NCBI GenBank assembly: GCA_034620365.1
Contig: JAQGEQ010000324.1
Coordinates: 434,001 to 498,000 of the forward strand
Source of the DNA: Pegea sp. RAD2-039
Lineage: Eukaryota; Chordata; Thaliacea; Salpida; Salpidae
Direction: 5' to 3'
Length of the DNA stretch: 64,000 nucleotides
Part shown: positions 4,116 through 64,000 of the stretch, one piece after another
How positions within the stretch are numbered: position 1 is the first letter of the stretch
How the letters are laid out: each line of letters begins with the position of its first letter
Notes under the pieces: generated by a model
Told to the model about the DNA's origin: nothing
The model's input: the letters and a program-made list of their open reading frames with translations, nothing else
Database searches by the model: none
Position numbers and translations under genes: made by a program

Positions 4116-6189
4116 ATTTTTTGGTGCCAAAATTTTCAAAATGCAATTTCGTCAATTTTCTCGTCAACTTTTCAAAGTGTCTTTTTCTTCATTTTTCTTA
4201 AAAGTTTCATTTAAACCATTTTTTTCATTTATGCATTTTTATCAAGATTTTTTTGATCTTTTTATTTTGTTGTCTTCTTATCAAAGAAAAAAAATATAAA
4301 ATTTGAAAATTGAAAGTTTTTGAAGTGTTGAAAATTTGAGGAGAAAAAACTTTATCACTTATTTACAACTTACAAAATTGACGATCAGATTTATGTTCAA
4401 ACTCTTTGCTGCTAGCAAGCGACAATAATGACTTTCTACAGAAATTGTCATTTTATAAAAAATTATTTTTAATCAAAATTTTTTTTTCAACTTTTTTGGA
4501 AGCAATTTTCAATTTGATTTCAGTTTGAAAATGAAAACTTTGATGAAAAAAAGAATTTTTAAATCAAATTCAAGTTTAAAAGATATGTTAGCCTGAGGCT
4601 GTGGAATTTTACAGCAATATTGCTTCAGTAATTCTATTTTGTATTTTAAAAGGTCATGTTAAAAGTTTACAAGTTGCTGAAAATGAGAAAAAAAAATGTA
4701 AGAAGTCAATTGAAAATGATATGATTGTTTTTATTTAACTGATATCACCAAACTAGAACCTAACTTAAGATTTATAATCTCTATTCTAGAATATAGATTG
4801 TTTCACCAATTCAAAAAAGTCTAAAATATCTTTAGAACTCCCAAATGTTGAACTTAAATCTCAAATAAAAATTTTTAATTTGAAAAATTAATTGAATTGT
4901 TTACTTTCAAAAAATTTAAAACAATTAGATATTATTTTCTAGTTAAAATATATTTGTATCATAAACTTTACAACTTTTATAGTATTTTCAGAAAGACAAT
5001 TAATAACAAGTTTTAATGGTAACAGAAATATTCAATAAAAGTTCATTTTCTTTTAATGTCCCTGTTCTATAATGAAATTTGAGTTTAAGAAACAGTTTTT
5101 TAAATTATAAACGTTATTTGTTGTAGTTTGAAAACTTTTCTGTCATTCGTGTTTAATAATAAATTTCATTTTTTTTTATTTTGTGACTTTTTCGTTAGAT
5201 AAATAATTTGTTTAAAAAGTTTAGTTAATTTGCTTTAAAAAATGATTTTTTTGAATAAAAATAAACAGATTTTGTGAATACTTTGATGTTATCTCATTTT
5301 AAAAATATTTGTTTTATTTTTAATGAATTCAAAAACTACAAAATTCTAAAATATCATCAGCTCTACAAATATAAAAATGATTATTATCATTTAAACTATT
5401 GATTTTCTTTTTAATAATAACAGATTAAGAACCAAATCAAGAAACAAATAATTTCCGGTTTCAAAACTTAAAACAGAAATTTTGAATTTAAAAAAATGTT
5501 TTGCTTCAATCAATATTTCGTGGCAAACTAAATTAGATTTTTTTCATAAAGGTGACTTGATCAGTGTGAAGATCTCAAGGTTATTAGAGATGATTAGACT
5601 TTGTGTTCCTCGCAAAACGAGACGCTTTCATGTTTTAATATTAGGAGAGCTTGCAGGTTAACGAAAGATTTTCAACTTCAAACCGAAAACTTTAATCACT
5701 TTATTATTAAATCTGAAAACTAAACAATTTATTGTGCAAACCAAATTATTTTTTTTTTCAGTTTGCAAAATATTGTCTGTTTTTATCAGTCAATCTGTTT
5801 TTATCATTTATAAATAAAAACAATAATTTTGCAGTTAAAAATGTTTACATATTTATAAATATTTGACTAAAATAATTCTTTAGAGATAATTATCAATTGA
5901 TAGCATCATTCTATTATTTTTAAACATAATTATTTTTAACGCAAGAATTCTCTTATAGATAAAAAAATAAAAAAAAATTGAAAGTTCTCACTAAAATGAG
6001 ATTTCAAAAATTAATTAAATCTAAAAATATTTTCAAAAATTGATTTAATGTAAAAACCTTTTATTAAAACTAGTCAATTAAAACAAATTAAATAAATCTT
6101 CAAGCTTTTGTAGTTAAAAATACTTTGGAACCAATACAGATTTAATTCTTATTTTTAAAATTAACCACAATTTAGTTGATCTTCAATTC
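4116..6189. other. AT-rich intergenic stretch
   Basis: No open frame with family resemblance, no RNA gene and no repeat recognised in this 2 kb. It separates the LRR-FN3 gene from the LINE remnant to its right. Confidence 0.5.
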
Positions 6190-7240
6190 GATGCTAGTCA
6201 GTGAAACTGGTTTGTTAAAGTCAAGTCCAGTGTTTCTAGGACTCTTTTTTATGAATTGGAGTAAAGACAGCTTTCTTTCAGATCTTTAAAACTCTTCCTC
6301 GCCTCAGAGTAATGTTTAATGGTAGAGATAAAGGTAGTAATAATGAGGAAGTAGTTTTTCCTAAAAATAAAAATAAAGTAGGGATCTGATCAAGGGTGTT
6401 AGAAACTGATGATTTTAAAGAAAAAAGAGCCTTAGCTATCATATCGACCGTTATGTCAAAATCTATCATCTCAGATAGATGTATAAGAATATGGAAGTAG
6501 GGAAGAGTATTCCGATCATCGGTTATAAAAACGCTATTCAATTGATTGTTTAGCAATTCAGCTTTATTCTCTGGTTTCATCACAAGCTGGTTGCTGTTAT
6601 CAAGTAAGGGAGGTATTTGAGATCTCGCCTTAAGCTTGTGATTTATTGAACTAAAAAACATTTTCTCGCTAGGTTCAGACTACACTTTCTTTAAAAATAA
6701 ATTTCTTTACGTGATTATTTGCCACTCCGTTTTTTGAAAAAAAAACCTTTACAGTTCTCAAGGCCCATGGTGGACCTCAAACTTTGTATTTGAAATCAGT
6801 TGATTGTTCCTTCTAATTTCGGTTATACGCCTCTTTTAGAAGACGCTTATTTTCTAAGCAATCATCTTCACACATATCATGTGCTACTCTAATGCGCTCG
6901 AATTTTTGTCAATCCTTTGGAAAGTCCACAAAATCAAGGCTTTGAGAGCACATTTGTTTAAAAAACTTACTGTCATCAGCTTTTATAATCTTATAGACTT
7001 TAAAGATTGTTTTTTCAGTCTTCACGGTCCAAGGTCAATTTTTGTGCGTGTCGGTGACCTTCTTGGCATGAAGCTGCACCATGCTAGCATTTTTGTCGGA
7101 ATCACCGACCATCGAGGCCCATGTGACAGAGGTTTCGTTGTTGAGGCATCCAGTTCATTCATTGATTTAGACGAACTAGTAATCTTTTTGTTGATTTTGG
7201 CAACATCATTGCCAATTTTAGATTTAAATCCTGCTTAGAT

Positions 7241-7434
7241 TGTCCTGCTTAGTGGCGAAGCGGTTACTACACCTACCTTCTATCTAGGAAGTACCGGGTT
7301 CGACCCCAGGTGGAGACATATAAAACTCCTGAGAAAAACCATAAAAAACTCATAAGAATGTGTGTTAGTGAGATGTGCTCTCTTTAGGCACCCTCCTTCG
7401 CATTTATATATATAAATAAATATAAATAAATAAA
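7241..7434 (+). mobile_element. tRNA-derived SINE, copy 1, inside LINE ORF1
   Basis: The head (about 7241-7317) has Pol III promoter boxes of tRNA type: an A box around TAGTGGCGAAGCGG and a B box GGTTCGACCCC. A short body follows, then a 55-nt segment (7352-7406) that also forms the 3' end of the LINE at 60928-60874 (49 of 55 positions), then a simple ATAAAT-type tail. It matches copy 2 at 60526-60713 almost throughout. It interrupts the reading frame of LINE copy A, so it inserted later. I found no clear target-site duplication. Confidence 0.9.
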
Positions 7435-7788
7435 TTTGGCTAATTCAACGGATATAGATTGGCTGATGTCGGACAATAGGTTTGAATAAGAATTAGAGGA
7501 GGTAGTTGTTATTTCTATATTTCTACATTTAATGCAGAACCATCTCAAACACATTTGCTTCATTTGGTTGTTTTCAAAAATGTCATTTATTTTCTTGCTT
7601 ACCTCACTACAGGTGAGATAAAACCAGGAGAGAAATTTAATACATTCTATTGTCGGATTTTTACCTGAGTAAATTTTATAGCAGGATTGGCAGATATCAT
7701 TGCACGCTTCTTTGGATGAAGTCGGTTTGCCAGAATTTTTCTGTATACTAGAACGTAAGGTCTTGCCTCTTTTGTTTTGGTTCACCAT
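7435..7788 (-). pseudogene. LINE ORF1 N-terminal part with PHD-like zinc finger
   Basis: The start codon is at 7788. Residues 33-88 carry a PHD-type pattern (C33-x2-C36, C49, W55, C60, C85-x2-C88), a known feature of CR1-group ORF1 proteins, which bind RNA in the retrotransposition complex. Two expected zinc ligands are changed: Phe sits where the second Cys of the middle pair should be, and Tyr where the His should be. The same two changes occur in copy B (25001-25267), so they were inherited from the source element. The frame runs into the SINE inserted at 7434. The remainder of ORF1 lies beyond the SINE at 7240-6725, with a region resembling the RRM-like C-terminal part of such ORF1s, but broken by frameshifts. 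Confidence 0.75.
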
Positions 7789-22205: not shown

Positions 22206-22842
22206 TAAATTGTGATTAAAAAATTTAGATGTTTTAATGGTTACTACCGGAGATTTTGTTGATTAAATCATATTTTCATTAATAAGACTATAAAATCGTC
22301 GAGTTGTTCGAGCTTGAACAACACGAGTGATTCTGACATGAAAATGTCTGATAGTAGCTGGTTCCAAGTACTAGTTATGCGGTATGAGAAAAAAATTTAA
22401 TCTGATTAACGTACTAGGTGATATGGGCTTATTAAGATATAATGTTTTAATGGTGCCTGAACAGACTCGATTTTTTGATATCACTGACTTGATAAGGCAT
22501 CCATGCAGTGATATTGTATTCAAGAATTGGACGTACGTACAATTTGAAAAGATTGATAAAAAAGTATGGATCCTTAGAATTAAAGGTCTTTATAATAAGG
22601 AAGACAAGGTTGACTGATTTTCCAAAAATTTTGGAAACATAATTGTGCCATTTAACGTCAGATGACAGAATAATGCCAAGGTCTAGGACCGAAGATGTTT
22701 GTTGAATATAAATCCTTTAAAAATCTATTAATGGAATATTAGTCCAAGGAATTTATAGCTGGTTTACGAGAAAGAGTTATAGTTTCAGACTTTGTTAGCT
22801 GGATTCTGAGCTGCCAATTCGTAGACCAGTTTTCTACAGTGT

Positions 22843-24629
22843 TTAGTGCTTTGAAGGATTACAAGATAATAGCTTGATATCATCTGCATACACAAACACT
22901 CTGACATCATCTGCTGCTACTAATCTTCTGATGAGGTCTTCGATGAAAATTAAAAAGAGAAGGGGACCCTGAACAGAATCCTGAGGAACACCACTGGTGA
23001 TCTGACTAGGAATAGATAAAGATCTTTCTACACGAGTTTGTTGGGTTCTACCTGATAAGTAATCCACTTTAACATAAAGCTGTTGTTTATTAAATATTGT
23101 TGTAGAATAATGAGCTTATTGTGTGGGACAGAATTAAACACTAGCAAAATCGAGGTAGATGATGCCATAAGGACTTTTATAATGGGCTGTAAGCTCCTTG
23201 AAAAAAGTTGAGCAAGGGAAGATCCCCCTTTCACAAAGCCATGCTAGACATTACATATTAGATGGTGCTCCATCAAATGACTGGTCATATGATTGTGAAT
23301 GATGTGTTCTTCAGTTTTACAGATAACTGAAGTCAGTGAAACTGGTTTGTTAAAGTCAAGTCCAGTGTTTTTAGGACTCTTTTTTATGAATTGGAGTAAA
23401 GACAGCTTTCTTTCAGATCTTTACATTTTCTTGATAGGTCCAGACTACACTTTCTTTAGAAATATATTTCTTGTAAACTTTACAAAGATCTTTGTACTGA
23501 GATTTGATGAAAGGGTCTGTTTTAGTTTGTTTGTAAGAGAGGATTTTTTAAATTTTGTAAATTCCTTAAATATTTGGCCAAATGTGTTAACTTGAGTAGG
23601 TAGTATTGATGTCTTCGGAAGAGTTGAAAACAGAAATCCAGTCAGCTGATAAAAATTTGTTAATACCATTATAATTTCCACGGTAAAAATTTCTTTTGCT
23701 TGGAGCTTTATCGTTCATAAAAAAAGTTTGATGGAGCTTGAATTCAATCATATTGTGATCGCATGTTGGAGCAAAATGCTCTTTTTGATCAACGTAGAGA
23801 ATGTTCTGAGGTTTTGATGTGATTAGAAGATCCAAAGTATTATCACTAACTTGGGTCGGAAAAGTAGCCATCTGAGATAAATTATTGGCATTGAGGAAGC
23901 TTACAAAGGCATGACTTAAAATGGCTGAATTAGTATTATCACTATCCAAGTTAATCGATTTCCCCCATAAATGCTGAGTTCGGGTTATTTCAACCAATTT
24001 TATTGATATTAAAATCCCTCAAAATTTATAACTCAGGACACACAACACTCTTCAGAACCTTCAATAAGACCTTAACAGTAACCTCATCATTAATTTTAGA
24101 TGGTGGTAGGTAGGTACATTTAAAACGAGAAAATTTGGACCTTGAGTAATGAAAATCAAAAGCGATAACCTCAAATCCTGAACAATTAATGGGATCGATA
24201 TGAATTCTAGGGATCTTGGGTGCAAGTGATGTTTTGTAAGTTACGCAAACACTGCCGCCTCTATCATACAATCTGTCATTATGTCATAACGCAAGATTAC
24301 AAAAATTAATTATTAATTATTAATGATTAACAAAAAAGATTACCGTCAACCGGAAAGGAATCAGGATAAAACGGTTTCAACCAAGTTTCATTAATAAAAA
24401 CAAATGTGAAATCTTGAGAATGCAAAAAAGCTTTCAATTGGAAAATTTTGTTAATAATCGACTGCGTGTTGAAGAACATTCCTAATGTGATAGAAGAATT
24501 GTCTTTTTGACACTTGTGAGATTTGATGATGGGCTTCTGTGAATTGGTATCTTGGTATGGAAGGATGGTATTCACAATTGTGTACGGAAAGAGTTTTTTG
24601 AAAAAACCTTGACAGTTCTTGAGGGCCAT
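22843..24629 (-). pseudogene. LINE ORF2 (endonuclease and reverse transcriptase), broken
   Basis: Separate open pieces (24629-24327, 24271-24026, 23997-23587, 23234-23028, 23067-22843) correspond in order to consecutive parts of the intact ORF2. They cover the endonuclease N-terminus (FNTQSI), the ETWL motif, the TLDLLIT and CDHN motifs, the VPHNKL region and the YADD box. The first piece starts MALKNCQGFF, which probably shows how ORF2 of this family begins. An insertion near 24300 and many frameshifts break it. Confidence 0.8.
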
Positions 24630-24639
24630 GGTGGAGGAA

Positions 24640-25267
24640 AAAGAAGATATGATACCAGCGGTTATTCGCCACTTCCGTTAAAAAAACTTTGACAATTCCC
24701 AAGGCCCATGGTGGACCTCGAACCTTTGGTTGTTCCAGTTAATAGTTGGTTGCTCCTTCTGATTTCGGTTATGCACCTCTTTTAGAAGACGCTACTCTAA
24801 TGCTCTTGAATTTTTTGTCAAGCCTTAGCTTATACAGCTGGGCAAGAAACTCGCGCTTGTCCCGATTTTCCTAAAAGGACACTTTCAACGGTCTTTGATG
24901 ATCTGAGCTTTTTGCTCCAAGTCTGGCCATTGATATCTTTGGAACGTCCACAAGACCAAGGCTTTGAGAGCACATTTGATTAGGAAACTTACTGTCATAT
25001 TTAACATTTAATGCAGAACCATCTCAAACCCATTTGCTTCATTTGGTTGTTTTCAAAAATGTCATTTATTTTCTTGCTTACCTCACTACAGGTGAGATAA
25101 AACCAGGAGAGAAATTTAATACATTCTATTGTCGGATTTTCACCTGAGTAAATTTTATAGCAGGATTGGCAGATATCATTGCACGCTTCTCTGGATGAAG
25201 TCGGTTTGCCAGAATTTTTCTGTATACTAGAACGTAAGGTCTTGCCTCTTTTGTTTTGGTTCACCAT
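24640..25267 (-). pseudogene. LINE ORF1 copy B with PHD-like finger
   Basis: The open frame 25267-25001 carries the same N-terminus and altered PHD-like finger as copy A. After 25000 the copy A middle part is missing, and sequence resumes in the RRM-like C-terminal region (24990-24660) with stops and frameshifts. Confidence 0.75.
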
Positions 25268-32900: not shown

Positions 32901-35900
32901 CGACAAACTAGTTGATGGTCCAGGAGATGTATTAGTTGAGGACAATGTTGGGGTGGTTGAAGATGATTTGTGGGTCTCTTGATGGCTTCGATGGTTTATT
33001 GGGTTCTTAAAAAGAAGTTTCGAATATTTAACAGCATTGATGGGATCTATATTCGAGTCCTTGTTGGTTTCTGATGCTACTGACGTCATCAGATGACGTA
33101 GATGACACGCAGCTGTATACTGAAGGACTCTTTCATCTAATCCCTGGAAGATTGAAGATGTTGGAAAAAGTCCAGATGTAGTTTGCTGAGGTAGAAATGG
33201 AATTGAAGGAAATTGAAGCAACGAATTTTGCATGGAAGCAGCCAACCATGGATAAAAATACATCAAAGTGCTGTAATATGCTGAAGGGTCTGTAAAAAGA
33301 TTTACCGATGATTAGGTGTTCCAGGAAGACACAAAAGATGAGATCTAGAATTGTTAGGGCAATTCATGGTAGAAACAACAATCTCTACTAAAGAAGAATG
33401 TTGGACAAACGCAAGTCACTTGCTCTGTAAGTGTTGGAGGATAATATTCAGAGCTACATCTAGAGAGATCTTAATAAAGCATGGAGTCAAAATTCTGTGG
33501 CTCAGCCATCAGAGAATGTCACCAAGGAGAAAGAAAATAAGAGGTGATGTGGACCCACGCCCTGAGACAACCATCACCAATCACTGTATTTTCTTTGGGT
33601 ACCAGGACAAGAGGCGATGTGGACCGACGTCCTGGGACAACCATCACCAATCACTGTATTTTCTTTGGGTACCAGGACAAGAGGCGATGTGGACCGACGT
33701 CTTGGGACAACCATCACCAATCACTGTATTTTCTTTGGGTACCAGGACAAGAGGCGATGTGGACCGACGTCTTGGGACAACCATCACCAATCACTGTATT
33801 TTCTTTGGGTACCAGGACAAGAGGCGATGTGGACCGACGTCCTGGGACAACCATCACCAATCACTGTATTTTCTTTGGATACCAGGACAAGAGGCGATGC
33901 GAGGTTAACAACAAAATAATTATTTTGGGGGTAGGGTTCCTTTCAGGATATTTGGAAATTTCTGGCAGCTATAATTTTGTTGTTGAGTAGAAAAGATCTT
34001 TGTAAATAAATAAATCAAAAAAAGTTGAAATTTGATAAAGAATAAGCAGATGACTTTGTAGAAGAGTTTGTCAAATCATATCAGTATCTGTAGAAGCAGG
34101 TTTTTATGCTTGAATACTTTGTCATTGTAACATGAGATGAAATGTCAGTCGACTATATGATGGCTTTTATGAATAACTTTTCAACTGGAAGATTTTATTT
34201 CAAAGTATTTGTCACTTTTCAATTTTATTTCTGTCATTTTTTTTATTTCTTTTTTTTTGCAGATATTTTTAAAGATTTTTTCACTTCAAAGATACAATCT
34301 GTTTTTTTGCTGTTTTTTATACTTTGTCACATTATCTGAAGATTTGATTGAAAAGGTGAAGATAGAATAAATATTTGACAGAAAACATCAGCGGAGAACT
34401 ACTTGGTGGTCACAGATAAAATTGTTTGATAAAATACTAATAATTGATGTTTAAAGAAAAGAGTTGAACAAAAAAGAATTTTTAAATGTTAAAAATTAAT
34501 TTGTTAAAAAATTATTTAAAGAAATAAATTAAAAGAAGAGGAAGACACAAAAAAGATTCGAAAATCTCTGATTAACTTTTGATTCGATTTTCAGCTGTAA
34601 ATTCTAATCAATCATTATTCAGCAAATCTGTTGGTAAAAAAATTGACTAGTTAATCTAAAAGTGGCTTCACATGCAGGTGGTGTTAGCTTTGATCAGTAA
34701 CTAGAACGAAATTGTGATTCGTACAGCTGCTCGCTTTGTGTGGTCCTCTTGCTATTATAACATTAATAACTATAATGACTCGATCAGGCAGAGGTCACAA
34801 AAAAAGTAAATTTAGGAAAAGAATGTTTTGAACAAGATGTAATTGATGTTAAGATGGAAAAAAGTTCAACTGAAAAATTTCAGTTTTTTTATTTAGAAAT
34901 AAAATAAATCATTTTAAGATGACTCAAAAATTTCTATTTTTCACCTGATAATTTGCAAAAAAAAAAATTGAAAAATTTGTTGAATATTTGAAAGACTCAC
35001 TTGTCAACATAGAATTGAAAACTGAAATATTTAATTGGTTATAATTTGAAGATGTCAAATTATTGTTGTTGATTTTCATCAAATGGTTTTGGTGGATTTG
35101 TTTGTCATTTGTAATCAATTTTTTACGGTTTTGTGAAGCAGTAGCTGATGAAGTGATTGTCGAAGTTGGGATAGAGCTTGTTGCTTCATTATCAGAAGTG
35201 AAAGTTGGTTGATGTTGCGGCCAAGCTCTTATAGAAGGAACATTTTCATAATGTCGAGTCTTCATCATATGAACGCTCAAATCCTGAGTCGAAGATTTGA
35301 TCGGAAATTTCGAAATTTAAAAACTTTCAGACAAAATAATTGATAGCAACAAACAAACACACAAACAAGCGAAACCTGAAGTGAATCGAAGCTGTGCTTG
35401 CATTCCATGCAAGTGAGAACGTTTTCAGAAGCTCTATCTTCATTTTCACTCAATTTGCGTTTCTTGTTGTTACTAACTCCTGCTGCAAGAAACAAATAAA
35501 TAATTTCATTCAATTTATTTGTAATTTGATTCAAGTCAAATCTAAAAAGTTTTCAAATTGAAGAAAATTAAATTCGAAAAGAAAAAAATTTACAAAATGA
35601 GCAACTTTGAAAAAAGTAGAGTTGAAAAAAAGAAAATTGAAATGAATAAATTAGTGAAAGCCTCATGTCACAAAAGATAAATTGTTTAATCTTCATAAAG
35701 TAAGTTAAAAAAAGAAAAAAAATAAACTTGGTAAATGACATTTGTAATATATAATCATGTCATTTTGTGTTTGCTTCTAAAACAGAAGTTTAGCTTCATT
35801 ATCATCGTGCATATGTTGAAATAGAGGTAGTATCTCTAAACATAATGATTTATCAGTTGAGAGTTGTATCATTTAATTGCTACAAAAAGATTTAATTTCA

Positions 35901-50446: not shown

Positions 50447-50589
50447 CTGAGGGCTCACTTGCTTCTAGCATTTTGGCTTAAAGCAGATATAGCAATGCAC
50501 TATTCAGTGATTAATGTTTATATGAACGTAGATAAGACCTTTAAATTTATCTAATTAAATAACTAGTAAATAACTAAATAATAGTGTCT

Positions 50590-50765
50590 ATCAATTGGAA
50601 AATTTTGTTAATAATTGACCATGCGTTGAAGAACATATTTAATGTGATAGAAGAATTGTCTTTTTGACGCTTGTGAGATTTGATGATGGGTTTTCTGTAG
50701 ATTGATACCTTTGGTATTCACACTTATGTGCGGAAAGAGTTTAAAAAAAGAAGATGTGAGTTCAG
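50590..50765 (-). mobile_element. CR1-like LINE fragment, copy C (start of ORF2)
   Basis: It matches the first 170 or so bases of ORF2 in copies B (about 24435-24600) and D (about 63825-63990), including TGTCTTTTTGAC and the TTGTTAATAATTGACC region. Short and frameshifted, so only a relic. Confidence 0.75.
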
Positions 50766-56903: not shown

Positions 56904-59873
56904 ATGAAACGATTTATTCTAATCATTGCCCTGTGCGCTGTTGTCAATTCAATTTCATTAAAAAATGTAAGGTTTTACATTAACGTCACTGAGTTAGCTT
57001 AGCAAACAGTCGCGTTAATAATTTGTAGAAAAGAAGTATTTAAAATAATGATAACAAATTTTAGAAAAATCTTATTACTCATTAGTTTAAAATAATTAAT
57101 TTTTAACGATTTTGAAGGATAATGTTCAATCTCATAAGAACAAGAAAAAGGACAATTTGGTGGTGAAGTATCATGACCAACTGAATATATCGTCTGCTGA
57201 GAGTAAAGGTTTAGAAGCTACAGAAAAAGATTTATTTAACAAAACAACAGCATCAAAAAACGTCGAATCATTTTGTGGTTTTGAAAATGAGGTTCAAAAA
57301 ACTTTGATAAAATTACTTTTATAAACAAGTAACCGAAAAATAGTTTTTAAAAGTGGAAGTTTTTAAATGTTGCTCATTATTTCATTTCTTAAATTAATTG
57401 AAGGTTACGAAGAGTAATAACGTTCCTGTTGCTCTTCGAGTAGTATGGCGTAAAAAGGTCCTTACTTATAGGTTAGTAATTTGTGATTAGAATGTCTAAT
57501 TATATGTAATATTTGTGGAGTTACATTAACTTTTTAATCATTTTTTAAAGTTTTATAAATTTTTCATCGAAAATTTATTGGAACAAGCAACGCGAGTTGA
57601 TGAAAAAAGCTTTTGATATATGGAGCGAACACATTCAGTTAACTTTCGTGGAAACTTGGAGAGACTATAATGCAGATATTAAAATCTCATTTCAAAGATG
57701 GCATCATCTTGATTGTCATAAATATCCTTTTGATGGACCTTCTGGAGTTCTTGCACATGCATATTATCCTGTAAATGGTGATATTCATTTTGATGAAGAT
57801 GAAAATTGGTCAGATGATACTAAAGGAAAATCAGGTTAGAAATATTTTTCTGTGTTAAAAAGAAAATTTTTATAAAATTTTTATAAAATTTTTTGATTTG
57901 ATAAAACTGTTATAAATTATCTTTTATAAATTTATCAAAATTTGCTCAAATGTGATAAAAATTTATTATTTATAATATTTATGAAACATTTATCAGAATG
58001 AAATCATTTTCAATTAAAACAAAGTGTTAAAAAGTTCTTGTATCTAAAGAATTTTTTTTTTAATTTCTCATTAAATAGAATTGATCGACTTTTTCCTTGT
58101 GGCTGTCCATGAAATTGGTCACTCAATAGGCTTGCAGCACAGTAACGATAAAGAATCTATCATGTTTAGAAAATACAAAGAACGCAAGACTGCTGGGTTT
58201 AGATTACCACAACCCGATGTTAACGAGGTTGTTCAGTTGTATGGTGAGTAACTTTAAATAGAAAATAGCCAAAAACTAGATGTTCAAATATAGGTAGAAG
58301 AAGTGGATCCTCAAAAACTATTACTTCATCGTTACCAAGAAATACTAAAGAAGGGACTAAAACAACTACAACTAAACCCACCATAACAACTTCTACAGCT
58401 GAATCAATTCCAAAACTTTGTAATCTTGATTCGTATGATTCTGTTTCTTACTTTTTGGGAGATTTCTTTATTTTCAAGTAAGTAAAATTCAGTTTAAATT
58501 ACAACAGAGTTTTGTTTGTTAGTCGAAGACACTTATAAAGATATATAGAGAAATAACAATTTGTATTTGATGGAAACAGGGGAATGTATTATTGGAGGAA
58601 AATACGAGATACAAGTTATTTCAGAGGACCAACGAGGATTACGAGGTTTTTTAGAAGTTTTACTGGAAAAGTTACAGCTGCTTTTGAAAACCCAACTAAA
58701 AATCGTATCAAACTATTTAATGGTAAAATTACAAATCTTCTATTTCCTTGAGTAATTTAGCCTAACGTTTCAGCAAAGCACTTGTATGTTGAACATTTCT
58801 CAAAGTTTGTAAATAAGTTGGTTAAGTTGACTTGTCACCTAAAACCACTCTAAACTCAAGCGTTAAATAAATAAGAACCAGTCTTATAGATAACTTTAGT
58901 ACATACAGACCTTGTGATTGGTAACTAAAATATTAGCAGGTAGTAGATAAGATGACTTGTTTTTTAAATTAATCATCTTTGAAGAAAGTAATTTAGAGAA
59001 CTTTTAATTACAAGTTATTGTTTATTTAGTATTTAAAACTTGATGTAAAACTTTTATAATATACTAAAGTGGGTTTACTAACAATTTGCTAAATGACTTC
59101 AGTCTACAATGAGCAAAAACATTTGTTATTTTATTCAATCAAAAACCATTGATATCAATAAGATTGTTTTTATACTGATTTAAATCCGTGTTTGAATAAA
59201 ATTATCATTAAGGTGATACTGTATCAGAGTTTCGTTTCACAAGACTGATTAAGGGGCCAACTAAAGTCAGCAATTTTGGATTAAATAGTAAAGTTGAAGC
59301 AGCCGCATATATAGAAGAAACGGATGAAACTATTGTTTACGATGGTAAGTAAATAAGGTATCATAATCAAATTTTAAGGATATTTTTATGAAATTGATTC
59401 AAAAACATAATTTTGTAACCATTTATTTTTTATAGCTACATTTTTTCTTAATTTTCAACAGATAAATAAGATATTTGAATTTGTCAAAATACTTTATTAA
59501 CTTCACTGAAGAAACTTAGACATTTAAAATTACTGAGACTTTGAAGAAATAAGTTGCTAACTGAAATCTTTGCAGGAAAATTATTCTGGAAAACTAAAGG
59601 TCGAGACCGCTACTTTGCTAAAACATTTTATGATGCACCACAGAAATTAGACAGTATGTTTACAAAACGTTCGGAAGGTAATGATAATGCAAACAAAAAC
59701 TCGTCAAAGTTTAAATGAATTGAACTGTCATGAAATAATATTAACGTAATTTTCTCACAGGTTTTGATAAACTGTATTTTGTTTTCAACACGGAGTATTA
59801 TGTTCATGACTTGAAAAAAGAAACTACATTTGGACCATATTCATTCGCCAAAGATTTTCTTGGATGTGACTGA
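56904..59873 (+). CDS. Matrix metalloproteinase with hemopexin domain
   Basis: Ten coding exons: 56904-56966, 57118-57291, 57404-57471, 57551-57834, 58079-58243, 58294-58477, 58580-58722, 59213-59344, 59576-59677, 59761-59873, giving 475 residues in consistent phase. A signal peptide (about 1-17) is followed by a short pro-region with Cys74 in SFCGFENE, which may be a changed cysteine switch (usual form PRCGxPD). The catalytic domain has LTYSFINF, DGPSGVLAHAYYP and HFDEDENW, then the zinc site HEIGHSIGLQH (207-217) with Met225 as the Met-turn. A Thr/Ser-rich hinge precedes a four-bladed hemopexin domain closed by Cys294 and Cys474. The protein should be a secreted or pericellular zinc endopeptidase acting on extracellular matrix. 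There is no transmembrane helix. Exon 7 must start at 58580; the earlier AG leads to a stop or breaks the hemopexin frame. Confidence 0.92.
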
Positions 59874-59990
59874 GTTATTTATGCTCAATGTCTAAATAAT
59901 TTGTAAACTTTCGAATATTTGATGATCTGACTTTAGTTCAACAAATATCAAGTCTTATATATTTTATCGATTCTTTTATTATATGCAGAA

Positions 59991-59996
59991 AATAAA
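59991..59996 (+). terminator. AATAAA poly(A) signal of the metalloproteinase gene
   Basis: AATAAA hexamer 118 nt after the stop codon. Confidence 0.55.
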
Positions 59997-60525
59997 TTGA
60001 AAAATGTATCTAATGGTTATTTGAAGTTCTATAGAAAGTAATGAAAATATTTTGTTTTTTTATTCACTTTTAGATTCAAGAGGTTCTTACAAATAATCTT
60101 TCAGCAAATAAAGACTTCAATCTTAGTTTTCAGAAATACACTTTATCTACTAATAAGATTTATCATTTTACAGATTATAGTTATTTCCTTTCAATCAATC
60201 TACTAAACAATTTATTTCTAAATTTACTCAATCAAAAGAATTTAAGATCAAAATTCTTTAACCTAATAGTTTGTCAATCTTTTGAGTTTACTTTAAAAGC
60301 AAAATTAAGTTGTTTACAACTTTATTATAATTGTAAGAAGATTAGAAGTTTTATTAATATTTATATTATGGTAAAGGGTATTTTTACATTTTCAACCTAA
60401 TGACCAAATCAATCAAAATTTGCCACTTAAGTTGGATTCACAAATGTTTATAACTATATTGAAATAAAAAGTTCAAACAACAACATAGTTTAAACATAAT
60501 CCAAAAGTAAGTTGCAGTATTATAA
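59997..60525. other. AT-rich gap between the metalloproteinase gene and the SINE
   Basis: No gene, RNA or repeat recognised. Confidence 0.5.
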
Positions 60526-60713
60526 TGTCCTGCTTAGTGGCGAAGCGGTTACTACACCTACCTTCTAGCTCGGAAGTACCGGGTTCGACCCCAGGTGGAG
60601 ACATATAAGACTCCTGAGAAAAACCATAGAAAACTCGTGAGAATGTGTGTTAGAGAGATGTGCTCTCTTTAGGCACCCTCCTTCGCATTTATATATATAA
60701 ATAAAAATAAATA
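60526..60713 (+). mobile_element. tRNA-derived SINE, copy 2
   Basis: It starts TGTCCTGCTTAGTGGCGAAG like copy 1, with the A box, the B box (GGTTCGACCCC, in a T-arm that still folds as CCGGG-loop-CCAGG), a body, and the 55-nt LINE-like tail segment at 60637-60691 before an ATAAA-type simple repeat. Within the tail, AGAGAG (60652-60657) pairs with CTCTCT (60663-60668) around a 5-nt loop. Its 3' end points towards the LINE end at 60841, on the opposite strand. Confidence 0.92.
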
Positions 60714-60873
60714 ATACTCTGCCGTGATTACACTAATTAAAATTACATCAGGCGTATAAATAAAATTTGAACAACATTCATCTTTAAGATGCCATCTTTA
60801 TTACTTTACTAGTAAAGAATTTTGCAAATTTACATATACGTTTTTTATTTATTTATTTATTTATTTATTACAA

Positions 60874-60928
60874 TAAATGTGAAGGAGGGTGCCTAAAAAG
60901 AGCACCTCTCGCTAACACACATTCTCAC
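60874..60928 (-). repeat. LINE 3' terminal segment shared with the SINE tail
   Basis: These 55 nt agree with SINE copy 2 (60637-60691) at 51 positions and with SINE copy 1 (7352-7406) at 49, in the same sense relative to each element's 3' end. In stringent LINE groups such a segment is what the reverse transcriptase recognises to prime at the RNA 3' end. Confidence 0.93.
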
Positions 60929-61013
60929 AAATTAGATCTATTTGACGTGTAAACGAAAAAGCATATGACAATGAAGAACTGCACAGAATCATAGTATTGT
61001 AAAAGAGAAAAAT

Positions 61014-64000
61014 TCACAGTTTAGAAATGGCAATGTTGGCGATATTATAACAATTCAGCTTTTTCTTGAACAGCATAAGTGATTTTGACATGACAATCTC
61101 TGATGGCAGATTGTTCCATGTACTGATTATGCGGTATGAGAAAAAACTTAATCTGGTTAACGTAGCTGGTGGAGTGGGCTTATTAAGATGTAATTTATTT
61201 CTTCTAAGTTGATATAACTTGAGGGAGGGACTAATGGAGAAAAAGTCATCAAACTGAAGATCAATTAGGTTGTGAATAATTTTAAAAATCAGAATAAGGT
61301 CGTATTTGATTCTTCGGATTTCCAAAGAATCTAGATTGAAGAAGCTGAGACGATGGTTATAACTCCCGTATTTGATATTAAGTTTCCTGCAAACCAATCT
61401 CGTAAATGTTGCCTGAACAGATTCGATTTTTCTGATATCACCAACTTGATATGGCATCCATGCACTGATATTGTATTCAAGAATAGGGCGTATGTACAGT
61501 TTGAAAAGGTTGACGAAAAACCATGGATCTTTAGAATTAAAAGTCTTTATGATGAGGTGGACAAGCTTGATAGATTTTCCAAAGATTCTGGAAACATAAC
61601 TGTGCCATTTGAAGTCAGATGTCAGAGTAATGCCGAGGTCTATGACTGAGGATACTCGTTCAAGAATGGATCCATTGATGTAGTATTGGTTGCTGAAGTT
61701 GGCCGCTGGCTTACGGGAGAATGTTATAACTTCAGACTTTGTTGGCTGGATTTTAAGTTGCCAATTCGCAGACCAGTTTTCTACAATGTTTAGTGCAGTT
61801 TGGAGTTTTGAGTGAGAACCAGATAATAGCTTGATGTCATCTGCATACACAAACACACTGACATTGTCTACTGTTATTAGTCTTCTGATGAGGTCTTCAA
61901 TGAAAATCAAAAAGAGAAGTGGACCCAGGACGGAACCTTGAGGAACGCCGCTGGTGACTTTACTAGGAGTAGATAAAGATCTTTCTACACGGGTTCGTTG
62001 GGTTCTACCTGATAAGAAATCTTCAATCCATTTTAAGATAGAGTTGCTGATTTTTATGTTTTTCAATACAGTAATGAGCTTGTTGTGTGGAACAGAATCA
62101 AACGCTTTAGCAAAATCAAGGTATATGATGTCACATGGAGTATTACTTTCGTAATGAGCTGTAAGCTCATTGAAAAAAGTGAGATGTTGAGTCAAAGAAG
62201 ATCTTTGCTTAACAAAGCCATGCTGGGCATCAGATATTAGATGATGCTCCGTCAAATGGCTAGTTATATGGTTGTGAATGATATGTTCTTGAGTTCTGCA
62301 GATAACCGAAGTCAGCGAAACTGGTCTGTAGTTAAGTGCAGTGTTTCTGGGACCTTTCTTATAAATTGGAGTAATAATAGCATTCTTCCAAATTTGTGGA
62401 AGTCTTCCCCGCTTAAGAGTCATGTTAAAGAGTAGCGATAAGGGTAGCGCTAAAGAAGAAGTACTTTTTCTTAAAAACAAAGCTGGGATTTGATCTGGGG
62501 TGTTGGAAACTGTTGATTTTAGAGAAGAAATAGCCTTAGATACTATATCAACTGTTATGTCTAGATCTACCATCTCAGAGATATTTGAAAGGATATTGGA
62601 GTAGGAAATAGTAGGAGTATTGCCATCATCGGTTATAAAAACCTTTTCAAATTGTTTGTTTAGCAATTCAGCTTTATTCTTTGGTTCCATCACCAGCTGA
62701 TTGGCGTTATCAAGCAAGGGAGGTAGATGAGATCTCGCCTTAAGCTTGTGATTAATGAAGCCAAAAAACGTTTTCTTGCTAGGTGAAGATAAGATTGCAC
62801 TTTCTTTTCCTAAATAGAGGCTATAAACTGATTTCTTGTAGACTAGACAAAGATCTTTGTATAGAGGTTTGATGGAAGGATCTGCTTTAGTTTGTTTGTA
62901 TAAGAGGTTTTTCAAATGCTGTAAATTCCTTAAATATCTTGGCAAGTGTGGTTTTTTGTTGACTCTATATAAAGGTATGAACTTTTTAATTGACTCATTA
63001 ACAATGTTAGTAAACCTTGAGTAGATATCATTGATGTCTTCGGTAGAGTTGAAAACAGAAATCCAGTCAACACCTGATAAAAACTTGTTTATACTGTTAT
63101 AATTTCCACGATAAAAGTTCCGTATGCTTGGAGTTTTAACGTTCGTAGAAAAAGTTTGTTGGAGCTTGAATTCAATCATGTTGTGATCGCATGTCAGAGC
63201 AAAAGGTTCATTTTGATCAACGTAGATAACGTTATCAGGTTTTGACGTGATGAGAAGATCCAAAGTATTACCACTAACTTGGGTTGGAAAAGTAACCATC
63301 TGAGATAGATTATTGGCATCAAGGAAGTTTACAAAGACATGACTCAGATTGGCTAAATTAGTTTTGTCTCCATTCAAATTAAACATTTTTCCATTGAATG
63401 CTAAATTTGGGTTATTCCAATCAATTCTACTAAAATTAAAATCCCCGAGAATATACATCTCAGGACAAACAAGGCTTTTCAGAACCTTCAATAAGGCCTT
63501 AATAGTAACCTCATCGTTAACTTTAGACGGTGGTAGGTAGGTACATATAAAGCGGGAAAACTTAGACTTTGAGTAATGAAAATTGAAAGCAATAATCTCA
63601 AATCCTGGGCAATCAATGGTATCTATCTTAATTCTTGAAATCATGGGTGCCAGTGATGTTTTATAGATTACACAAACACCGCCGCCTCTATCAAACAGTC
63701 TATCACAGCGCAAAGCACGAAAAAGATCACTGTCATCCAGAAAGGAGTCAGGATAAAAGGGTTTCAACCAAGTTTCGGTAATGAAAACAAATGTAAAATC
63801 TTGAGAAAGCAAAAGAGCTTTCAATTCGAAAATTTTGTTGACAATTGACCGTGCGTTGAAAAGCATACCTAATATAAAAGAAAAATTGTCTTTTTGACAC
63901 TTGTAAGATTTGGTGGTAGTCTTCTGTGTACTGTTATCTTGGGCTGGAAGCATAGTATTAATAATTTTGTGCGAAGAGAGGTTGAATAAGGGTGATGTGG
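61014..64000 (-). CDS. LINE ORF2: APE-type endonuclease and reverse transcriptase, partial
   Basis: One uninterrupted frame of 979 codons from the ATG at 63953, which stays open for another 15 codons to the edge. The true start is therefore probably outside; copy B suggests an MALKNCQG-type start. Residues counted from 63953: the endonuclease has N33, E60 (TETW), D171/N173 (GDFNFSRIDW), TLDLLIT (230-236) and D256/H257 (CDHN). The reverse transcriptase has Asp613 (YLDFAKAFD), GVPQGSVLGPLL (669-680) and YADD (703-706). The C-terminus has the usual WNNLPSEIV phrase. It nicks target DNA and copies the element RNA there (target-primed reverse transcription). With no stop or frameshift and all catalytic residues present, this looks like a recent, possibly active copy. 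The usual SDH box reads CDH. Confidence 0.95.
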   Translation of the reverse strand, partial: TSPLFNLSSHKIINTMLPAQDNSTQKTTTKSYKCQKDNFSFILGMLFNARSIVNKIFELKALLLSQDFTFVFITETWLKPFYPDSFLDDSDLFRALRCDRLFDRGGGVCVIYKTSLAPMISRIKIDTIDCPGFEIIAFNFHYSKSKFSRFICTYLPPSKVNDEVTIKALLKVLKSLVCPEMYILGDFNFSRIDWNNPNLAFNGKMFNLNGDKTNLANLSHVFVNFLDANNLSQMVTFPTQVSGNTLDLLITSKPDNVIYVDQNEPFALTCDHNMIEFKLQQTFSTNVKTPSIRNFYRGNYNSINKFLSGVDWISVFNSTEDINDIYSRFTNIVNESIKKFIPLYRVNKKPHLPRYLRNLQHLKNLLYKQTKADPSIKPLYKDLCLVYKKSVYSLYLGKESAILSSPSKKTFFGFINHKLKARSHLPPLLDNANQLVMEPKNKAELLNKQFEKVFITDDGNTPTISYSNILSNISEMVDLDITVDIVSKAISSLKSTVSNTPDQIPALFLRKSTSSLALPLSLLFNMTLKRGRLPQIWKNAIITPIYKKGPRNTALNYRPVSLTSVICRTQEHIIHNHITSHLTEHHLISDAQHGFVKQRSSLTQHLTFFNELTAHYESNTPCDIIYLDFAKAFDSVPHNKLITVLKNIKISNSILKWIEDFLSGRTQRTRVERSLSTPSKVTSGVPQGSVLGPLLFLIFIEDLIRRLITVDNVSVFVYADDIKLLSGSHSKLQTALNIVENWSANWQLKIQPTKSEVITFSRKPAANFSNQYYINGSILERVSSVIDLGITLTSDFKWHSYVSRIFGKSIKLVHLIIKTFNSKDPWFFVNLFKLYIRPILEYNISAWMPYQVGDIRKIESVQATFTRLVCRKLNIKYGSYNHRLSFFNLDSLEIRRIKYDLILIFKIIHNLIDLQFDDFFSISPSLKLYQLRRNKLHLNKPTPPATLTRLSFFSYRIISTWNNLPSEIVMSKSLMLFKKKLNCYNIANIAISKL

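Follow-up and report, generated by a model that had tools for sequence, protein, structure and literature searches.

A tRNA-related SINE and a CR1/L2-like LINE with a common 3′ tail in a salp genome: a probable stringent-type pair

The SINE and LINE copies of the locus

The window analysed here, the whole 64,000-nt stretch of DNA from Pegea sp. RAD2-039, contains two copies of a tRNA-related SINE on the plus strand and, on the minus strand beside the second copy, the 3′ part of a LINE of the subfamily designated LINE-a. Each feature is listed with the basis of its assignment.

60527..60603, plus strand: tRNA-related head of SINE copy 2 (sequence; relaxed ARAGORN fold)
60538-60548, plus strand: A-box-like motif of SINE copy 2 (named by eye)
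60582-60592, plus strand: B-box of SINE copy 2, GGTTCGACCCC (named by eye)
60604..60638, plus strand: short linker of SINE copy 2, from head to tail (alignment of SINE copies)
60639..60692, plus strand: 54-nt tail of SINE copy 2 in common with the LINE, predicted hairpin region (alignment and fold prediction)
60693..60713, plus strand: terminal AT-rich simple repeat of SINE copy 2 (sequence)
7241..7434, plus strand: SINE copy 1, nested in an older relic of a related LINE (sequence comparison)
7354..7407, plus strand: shared 54-nt tail of SINE copy 1 (alignment)
60856..64000, minus strand: LINE-a copy, 3′ part (empty sites in the inverted and tandem duplicates)
61014..63998, minus strand: LINE ORF2, endonuclease and reverse transcriptase (Pfam, solved structures)
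60873..60926, minus strand: LINE 3′ tail, 54 nt, predicted 17-bp bulged hairpin (consensus and fold prediction)
60856..60872, minus strand: LINE terminal (TAAA)n, with an ambiguous border to the TAAATAAA-like target (copies and empty sites)

The two box labels in the head of SINE copy 2 were given by eye, by likeness to the general consensus of the Pol III A and B boxes. The first-pass annotation had reported a 55-nt segment common to the 3′ ends of the SINE and the LINE, followed in both by a simple ATAAA-type tail, and the sequence bears out both statements. The LINE end (60928-60874, minus strand) is identical, without gaps, to SINE copy 2 at 51/55 positions (60637-60691) and to SINE copy 1 at 49/55 (7352-7406), the best ungapped match of the LINE 55-mer elsewhere in the window, with the two SINEs and the LINE end excluded, is 29/55, and AT-rich repeats of the ATAAA type terminate both elements. 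The span proposed there for SINE copy 2 was approximately right, but not its first base: the body begins at G60527, because GTCCTGC opens the aligned SINE copies, and T60526 belongs to the flank.

The SINE is about 190 bp long and tRNA-related, and, as in tRNA-derived SINEs, it is short and dispersed, ends in a 3′ simple repeat and has recent copies. The consensus of the head subtype A gave a tRNA-Arg(TCT)-like fold in relaxed ARAGORN and nothing at default settings, and the head had no Rfam match at E≤1, nor at E≤10 on six related loci. Its predicted minimum fold is one long hairpin and not a cloverleaf, with z scores of -2.8 for head A, -4.0 for head B and -1.3 for the head of window copy 1. 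The region of the anticodon arm varies by insertions, for example in L050, L071, L072 and L124, and one head insert, GCTACAAGGTAC, occurs reverse-complemented in other SINE copies, as if the tip of a hairpin had been flipped. Another SINE variant, TAGGTGGAGACATATTTATAAAAC, recurs on many contigs (C174 to C383, among the matches listed), several of them short, and may sit within a unit that is duplicated or satellite-like; one copy of it, L126, was fetched.

The LINE-a copy measures about 4,352 bp as a whole and extends about 1.2 kb beyond the window. Its ORF1 encodes 331 aa, with a PHD-like stretch at E=0.014, below the curated cut-off, and its ORF2 encodes 979 aa with RVT_1 (E=5.7e-39) and Exo_endo_phos_2 (E=2.3e-11) domains. 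RVT_1 and two endonuclease families are the only Pfam matches of ORF2 at E≤0.001, which is the arrangement of the CR1/L2 group, namely an APE-type endonuclease and a reverse transcriptase with no RNase H, and its 14 solved matches include the R2 and L1 reverse transcriptases. LINEs of the CR1/L2 group have an ORF1 with a PHD-type zinc finger, 3′ short tandem repeats, strong 5′ truncation and short or no target duplications. Correspondingly, the LINE ends in (TAAA)n, is frequently 5′-truncated (24 of 46 LINE-a copies with context are truncated inside that context) and has short candidate target duplications; the (ATTCTRTG)n terminus of amniote CR1 was not found, the LINE ends observed being TAAA repeats. 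By these features the LINE would fit into the CR1/L2 group. Long (AAAT)n ends were seen in L037, where the run covers 616 nt (1739-2354), and in L101, where it continues for at least 100 nt, up to the point at which the retrieved sequence stops.

Both the SINE and the LINE have been copied recently. The last 231 bp of the window LINE are identical at 231/231 positions in 27 of 40 scored matches, the window's own included, and therefore the LINE-a family is young; the SINE bodies of L004 and L005 are identical over 175 aligned bases, although they lie on different contigs (unlinked sites). Candidate target duplications of 31 SINEs, which are those of 35 with a clear 5′ end, averaged 6.1 as against 5.0 with the flanks shuffled between copies, a value above all 500 shuffles, and those of 24 LINEs averaged 5.2 as against 4.4, which 3/500 shuffles reached; single long candidates measured 19 and 14 bp. 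The mostly short target duplications of both elements accord with one shared machinery, without proving it.

Two duplicates of the SINE copy 2 neighbourhood lie within about 20 kb, an inverted one of 99.9% identity and a tandem one of about 97-99%; the stretches concerned are L001 (C59:511884-515071), window positions 59026-60855 and L109 (5461-6267). Both duplicates carry the SINE with its tail and lack the LINE, therefore the LINE was inserted after the duplications and its pre-insertion site can be read directly. The target is TAAATAAA-like, and any target duplication there is short and obscured by the terminal repeats. SINE copy 1 lies inside a diverged, mostly minus-strand LINE relic (window 6145-7730, pieces 74-86% identical), and older relics of the same LINE group are found at 22313-25209 and 50588-50714 (about 71-84% identical). 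A 3′ end was looked for beside the relic at 22313-25209 and not found, hence this relic supplies no extra tail.

Distribution and descent of the tail

The assembly searched comprises 105.7 Mb in 387 contigs. As a 17-mer with ≤2 mismatches, the tail core occurs at 2,293 genome sites, compared with 6 for the reversed pattern; the SINE head occurs at 351 sites and the LINE coding end at 1,540, each against 0 in the control. The SINE copies were picked by their heads, to prevent selection by the tail, and the tail is present in 43/43 exact heads listed on contigs C1-C15. On C1-C8, 22 of 29 listed heads are accompanied by the exact tail core at matching listed coordinates and the other seven, when fetched, carry one mismatch; on C11-C15, the tail core with ≤2 mismatches follows 13 of 14 listed heads, which were fetched, and was also seen in the fourteenth, L005. 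Older SINEs, recognized by an older linker motif, have the tail in 20/20 cases, 19 of them with ≤3 mismatches and one (L119) with an internal deletion, so that all 63 head-selected SINEs examined retain it. The genome-wide count thus rules out that the match is restricted to the copies of the window, and SINEs without the tail, the other circumstance that would have spoken against the first-pass annotation, were absent from the 43 listed and the 20 older copies. On the LINE side, 20 coding ends were fetched, 12 for which no exact tail was listed at the expected distance and 8 beyond the tail-listed contigs. A recognisable tail core (≤5 mismatches) is present in 17, the remaining three (L091, L097 and L102) being truncated or deleted at the tail, and L100, among the 12, has the exact tail farther away than expected. 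Viral contigs, scanned for the tail and for the SINE head, gave no match.

A second LINE subfamily, LINE-b, carries almost the same tail. The consensus tails of LINE-a (21 distinct copies) and LINE-b (14 copies, 10 of them picked by the coding end with no tail required) are identical in 54/56 columns, whereas the adjacent upstream part of the 3′ UTR agrees in 61/87 columns and has a further 41 gap columns. The ORF2 ends of LINE-b match those of LINE-a at 64.9% of 57 aa (L060) and 69.2% of 65 aa (L010); the two L060 records overlap and hold the same ORF2 piece, hence two LINE-b copies are counted here and not three. L068 is a third, intermediate element, whose ORF2 matches LINE-a in pieces of 74-87%; the search with the tail core led to L060 and L068, but not to the L010 copy. 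From these alignments the tail appears constrained beyond the neighbouring UTR, as would be expected of an enzyme-recognition site, and LINE-b is the older-looking subfamily.

Individual tail positions were counted with six indel rows left out (3 LINE-b, 1 truncated and 2 SINE) and with window copy 2 and its tandem duplicate included; from the earlier tail set, 108 of 116 had been retained after removal of identical flanks, L001-L003 representing one insertion in duplicated DNA and L007 and L008 another single one. T21 is found in 51/53 SINEs, the other two having A, and in 0/66 LINEs. LINE-a tails have A47 in 51/54 and T29 in 32/54 copies, in a sample enriched for window-like copies, since about 30 of its rows come from the search with the window's own LINE end, and LINE-b tails have C32 in 10/12; among the 53 SINE tails, C29 occurs in 52, T32 in 52 and G47 in 41. 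The SINE L084 has a LINE-like TTG end, and the more diverged SINE copies tend to LINE states (C16, and the TTG-type end of L084). SINE tails do not track LINE subfamilies, a point that the first-pass annotation had proposed to check: most of them retain C29, T32 and G47, and T21 is theirs alone. On the simplest reading, one old tail would have been captured from an early member of the LINE family and then inherited within the SINE.

Two head-A copies (L087 and L129) and one head-B copy (L088) carry the same rare tail changes, T30C and C36A. The presence of the same rare changes under different heads suggests template switching or conversion between SINE subtypes.

Predicted fold and covariation of the tail

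The 54-nt tail is predicted to fold into one long hairpin, built of GAAUGUG/CRCAUUU, AG/CU, GAG/CUC and GGUGC/GCACC, with bulged C16 and A20 and the loop UCUYUUYAG. Its pairs are standard at 17/17 positions in four LINE consensus tails and at 16/17 in three SINE tails, the G21-C39 pair being missing in nearly all SINEs, and its energy is -16.9 kcal/mol in two LINE-a forms, -16.5 and -14.1 kcal/mol in two LINE-b forms and -11.4 kcal/mol in the SINE. Six of the seven consensus tails have this hairpin, or a form one or two pairs different from it, as their minimum-energy fold; the exception is the subtype to which window copy 2 belongs, whose minimum (-14.2) contains the AGAGAG/CTCTCT stem. Compared with shuffled sequences, the tail has z scores of -2.9 in LINE-a, -2.6 in LINE-b and -1.3 in the SINE, and the rest of the UTR +1.1; the SINE hairpin is only mildly stable, at -1.1 to -2.2 with flanks. 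When flanks are included, the LINEs, with the foot in another register, and SINE-B mainly adopt the long form, whereas the two folds compete in SINE-A and in the old form of the SINE, at about 0.3 vs 0.6. From 62 distinct retained tails, 61 were aligned (L119 was left out), and the RNAalifold consensus of this alignment is a weak variant whose foot is shifted into a different register, at -2.5 kcal/mol. We regard the long bulged hairpin as the likely structure of the tail.

The short AGAGAG/CTCTCT hairpin put forward in the first-pass annotation does exist in copy 2 and is favoured there, with a pair probability of 0.63-0.68 for GAGA/UCUC, but as a recognition structure it is weak and probably not the one, the long hairpin being lower in energy in 6/7 consensus tails. 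Taken alone (7 pairs, TAG.GAGA/TCTC.TTA), it reaches -1.1 and -3.1 kcal/mol in two LINE-a tails, +0.7 in LINE-b and -2.7 to -2.9 kcal/mol in SINE tails. GGUGC/GCACC was also considered alone as the tail structure, and the long hairpin was preferred on energy. That the two short stems might jointly form an H-type pseudoknot is an idea only.

The covariation for the long hairpin is suggestive, not decisive. Compensatory change, which the first-pass annotation had proposed to look for in its short hairpin, is suggested in the long one by a double change from G-C to A-U at pair 24-36; for the AGAGAG/CTCTCT stem alone, the covariation score was reached by 461/500 shuffles. Covariation does not decide between the two folds. 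Among 100 listed LINE-b tails, pair 24-36 is G-C in 58, G.U in 23, A-U in 8, A.C in 7 and G.A in 4. Tails with A24 have U36 in 43/89 and C36 in 43/89 (C32-bearing tails among the first 100 of 155 sites), and tails with G24 have U36 in 23/85 and C36 in 58/85 (G24-bearing tails among the first 100 of 846 sites), an association with a Fisher p of 0.005, or 0.019 on distinct sequences. The association is strong where position 29 is C (p=1.4e-5) and disappears where it is T (p=0.74). Moreover, site 24 is correlated with site 29 in the loop, C29 being present in 73/89 of the A24 tails vs 41/85 of the G24 tails; therefore, shared descent explains part of the signal. The score of the long hairpin was reached by 28/500 shuffles and its percentage paired by 48/500. 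A blind mutual-information scan of the 100 LINE-b tails ranked pair 17-29 first, a pair of the AGAGAG/CTCTCT stem, and pair 24-36 stood outside the best 14 of 171 pairs.

Partnership of the SINE with the LINE

Based on the tail found genome-wide and on the SINE copies selected by head, the reading of the two elements as a parasite and its donor is supported, and we are highly confident that they constitute a LINE/SINE pair of the stringent type. Since the SINE carries the end-piece of the LINE RNA, it very probably hitch-hikes on the copying enzyme of the LINE. By analogy with known pairs, ORF2 would recognize the long hairpin and copy the SINE RNA in trans. In the mechanism that we propose, ORF2 could bind the tail hairpin just upstream of the simple-repeat end and nick an A/T-rich target, to which the terminal TAAA repeats could anneal, and target-primed reverse transcription would start at the annealed TAAA; the SINE RNA, which Pol III presumably transcribes from the head, would bear a copy of the hairpin and be copied by the same enzyme. 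The SINE tail may have been captured once from this LINE family, before LINE-a and LINE-b separated or when they were beginning to do so, and would have evolved independently since then, acquiring T21 and the TATATA end.

Several other explanations of the common tail were weighed. An exchange of sequence between the adjoining SINE and LINE end, by recombination or duplication at this very locus, could be imagined because about 160 bp separate the two tails, which are inverted relative to each other and belong to a segmentally duplicated stretch; however, head-selected SINEs carry the tail across many contigs, and the duplicates without the LINE have the SINE complete with its tail, so that the SINE predates this LINE copy, and the explanation, already refuted, has practically no probability left. 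A borrowing in the other direction, with the SINE as the source of the LINE tail, is also extremely improbable. A LINE could in principle gain a SINE tail by template switching, and the SINE tail is about equally near to LINE-a and LINE-b, but the more diverged SINEs tend to the LINE states (C16 and the TTG-type end of L084), T21 is private to the SINE, and the tails of two LINE lineages whose ORF2 ends are 65-69% similar agree with each other and lack T21.

A relic of an old capture deserves more attention, although we hold it to be quite unlikely: the SINE would now be moved by some other machinery, for example one needing an A-rich end, and the hairpin would be irrelevant to it. The SINE tails are without the G21-C39 pair, the SINEs finish with TATATA or with stretches rich in A (in L055, a run of A), and their tails have not followed the changes of LINE-a at 29 and 47, all of which such a relic would accommodate; on the other hand, 63/63 head-selected SINEs keep the tail (one with an internal deletion), the SINE consensus tails hold 16/17 pairs, and LINE-a is young and abundant. 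In the pair as a whole, the youngest LINE-a tails have changed C29 to U in the loop and G47 to A, with a predicted stronger stem base, and the SINE, which keeps an older tail, has not followed them; its private U21 disrupts one pair of the stem in almost all copies. An arms race, with the LINE evolving away from its SINE parasite via the recognition structure, is a speculative and rather doubtful account of this divergence; if it were true, the natural tail variants would be a ready-made series for measuring recognition.

The UnaL2 tail hairpin has a GGAUA loop. The hairpin predicted here differs from it in its 17 pairs with bulges, in the loop UCUYUUYAG, where GGAUA is not found, and in the terminal repeat TAAA, while the pair resembles UnaL2/UnaSINE, ZfL2-1 and ZfL2-2 in that a SINE and a LINE have a common 3′ tail with a stem-loop, predicted in the present case. 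In the stringent LINEs of the L2 clade (eel UnaL2/UnaSINE; zebrafish ZfL2-1 and ZfL2-2), ORF2 binds the tail stem-loop through a region between the endonuclease and the reverse transcriptase, and a bulged nucleotide of the stem matters (PMC4176376). The passerine TguSINE1/PittSINE, partnered with CR1-X1_Pass, have tRNA heads, a CR1-type tail with a hairpin and a terminal microsatellite, and diagnostic nucleotides of their tails show descent from one captured tail (PMC5729268). A single captured tail inherited within the SINE would be the likeness to our pair. The hosts differ, the amniote CR1 end is an 8-bp AUUCURUG repeat whereas this LINE ends in TAAA, and the passerine heads were replaced by another tRNA whereas the heads seen here vary by insertions within one type.

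By 2013, a table had been compiled of 58 SINEs that have their tail in common with a partner LINE, with the CR1 and RTE clades dominating; in the part of that table covered here our pair was not recognised, though it is exactly of the kind collected there (PMC3747384). The literature, among the matches listed, describes many such pairs and none that is this one, which does not establish the pair as unpublished. Tail-sharing pairs explain the spread of SINEs and the choice of RNA by stringent LINEs, and the present pair leaves this general picture unchanged; to the tails already described it contributes a predicted hairpin that is long and has no GGAUA loop. Because the pair is young and offers numerous almost identical copies, two or more subfamilies of the LINE, several subtypes of the SINE and a LINE pre-insertion site that can be read cleanly, the recognition hairpin and the divergence of the SINE from it are directly testable. 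Elsewhere in the window, on the plus strand at 33351-33908, there is an ORF of near-identical internal repeats, probably a coding-open tandem repeat.
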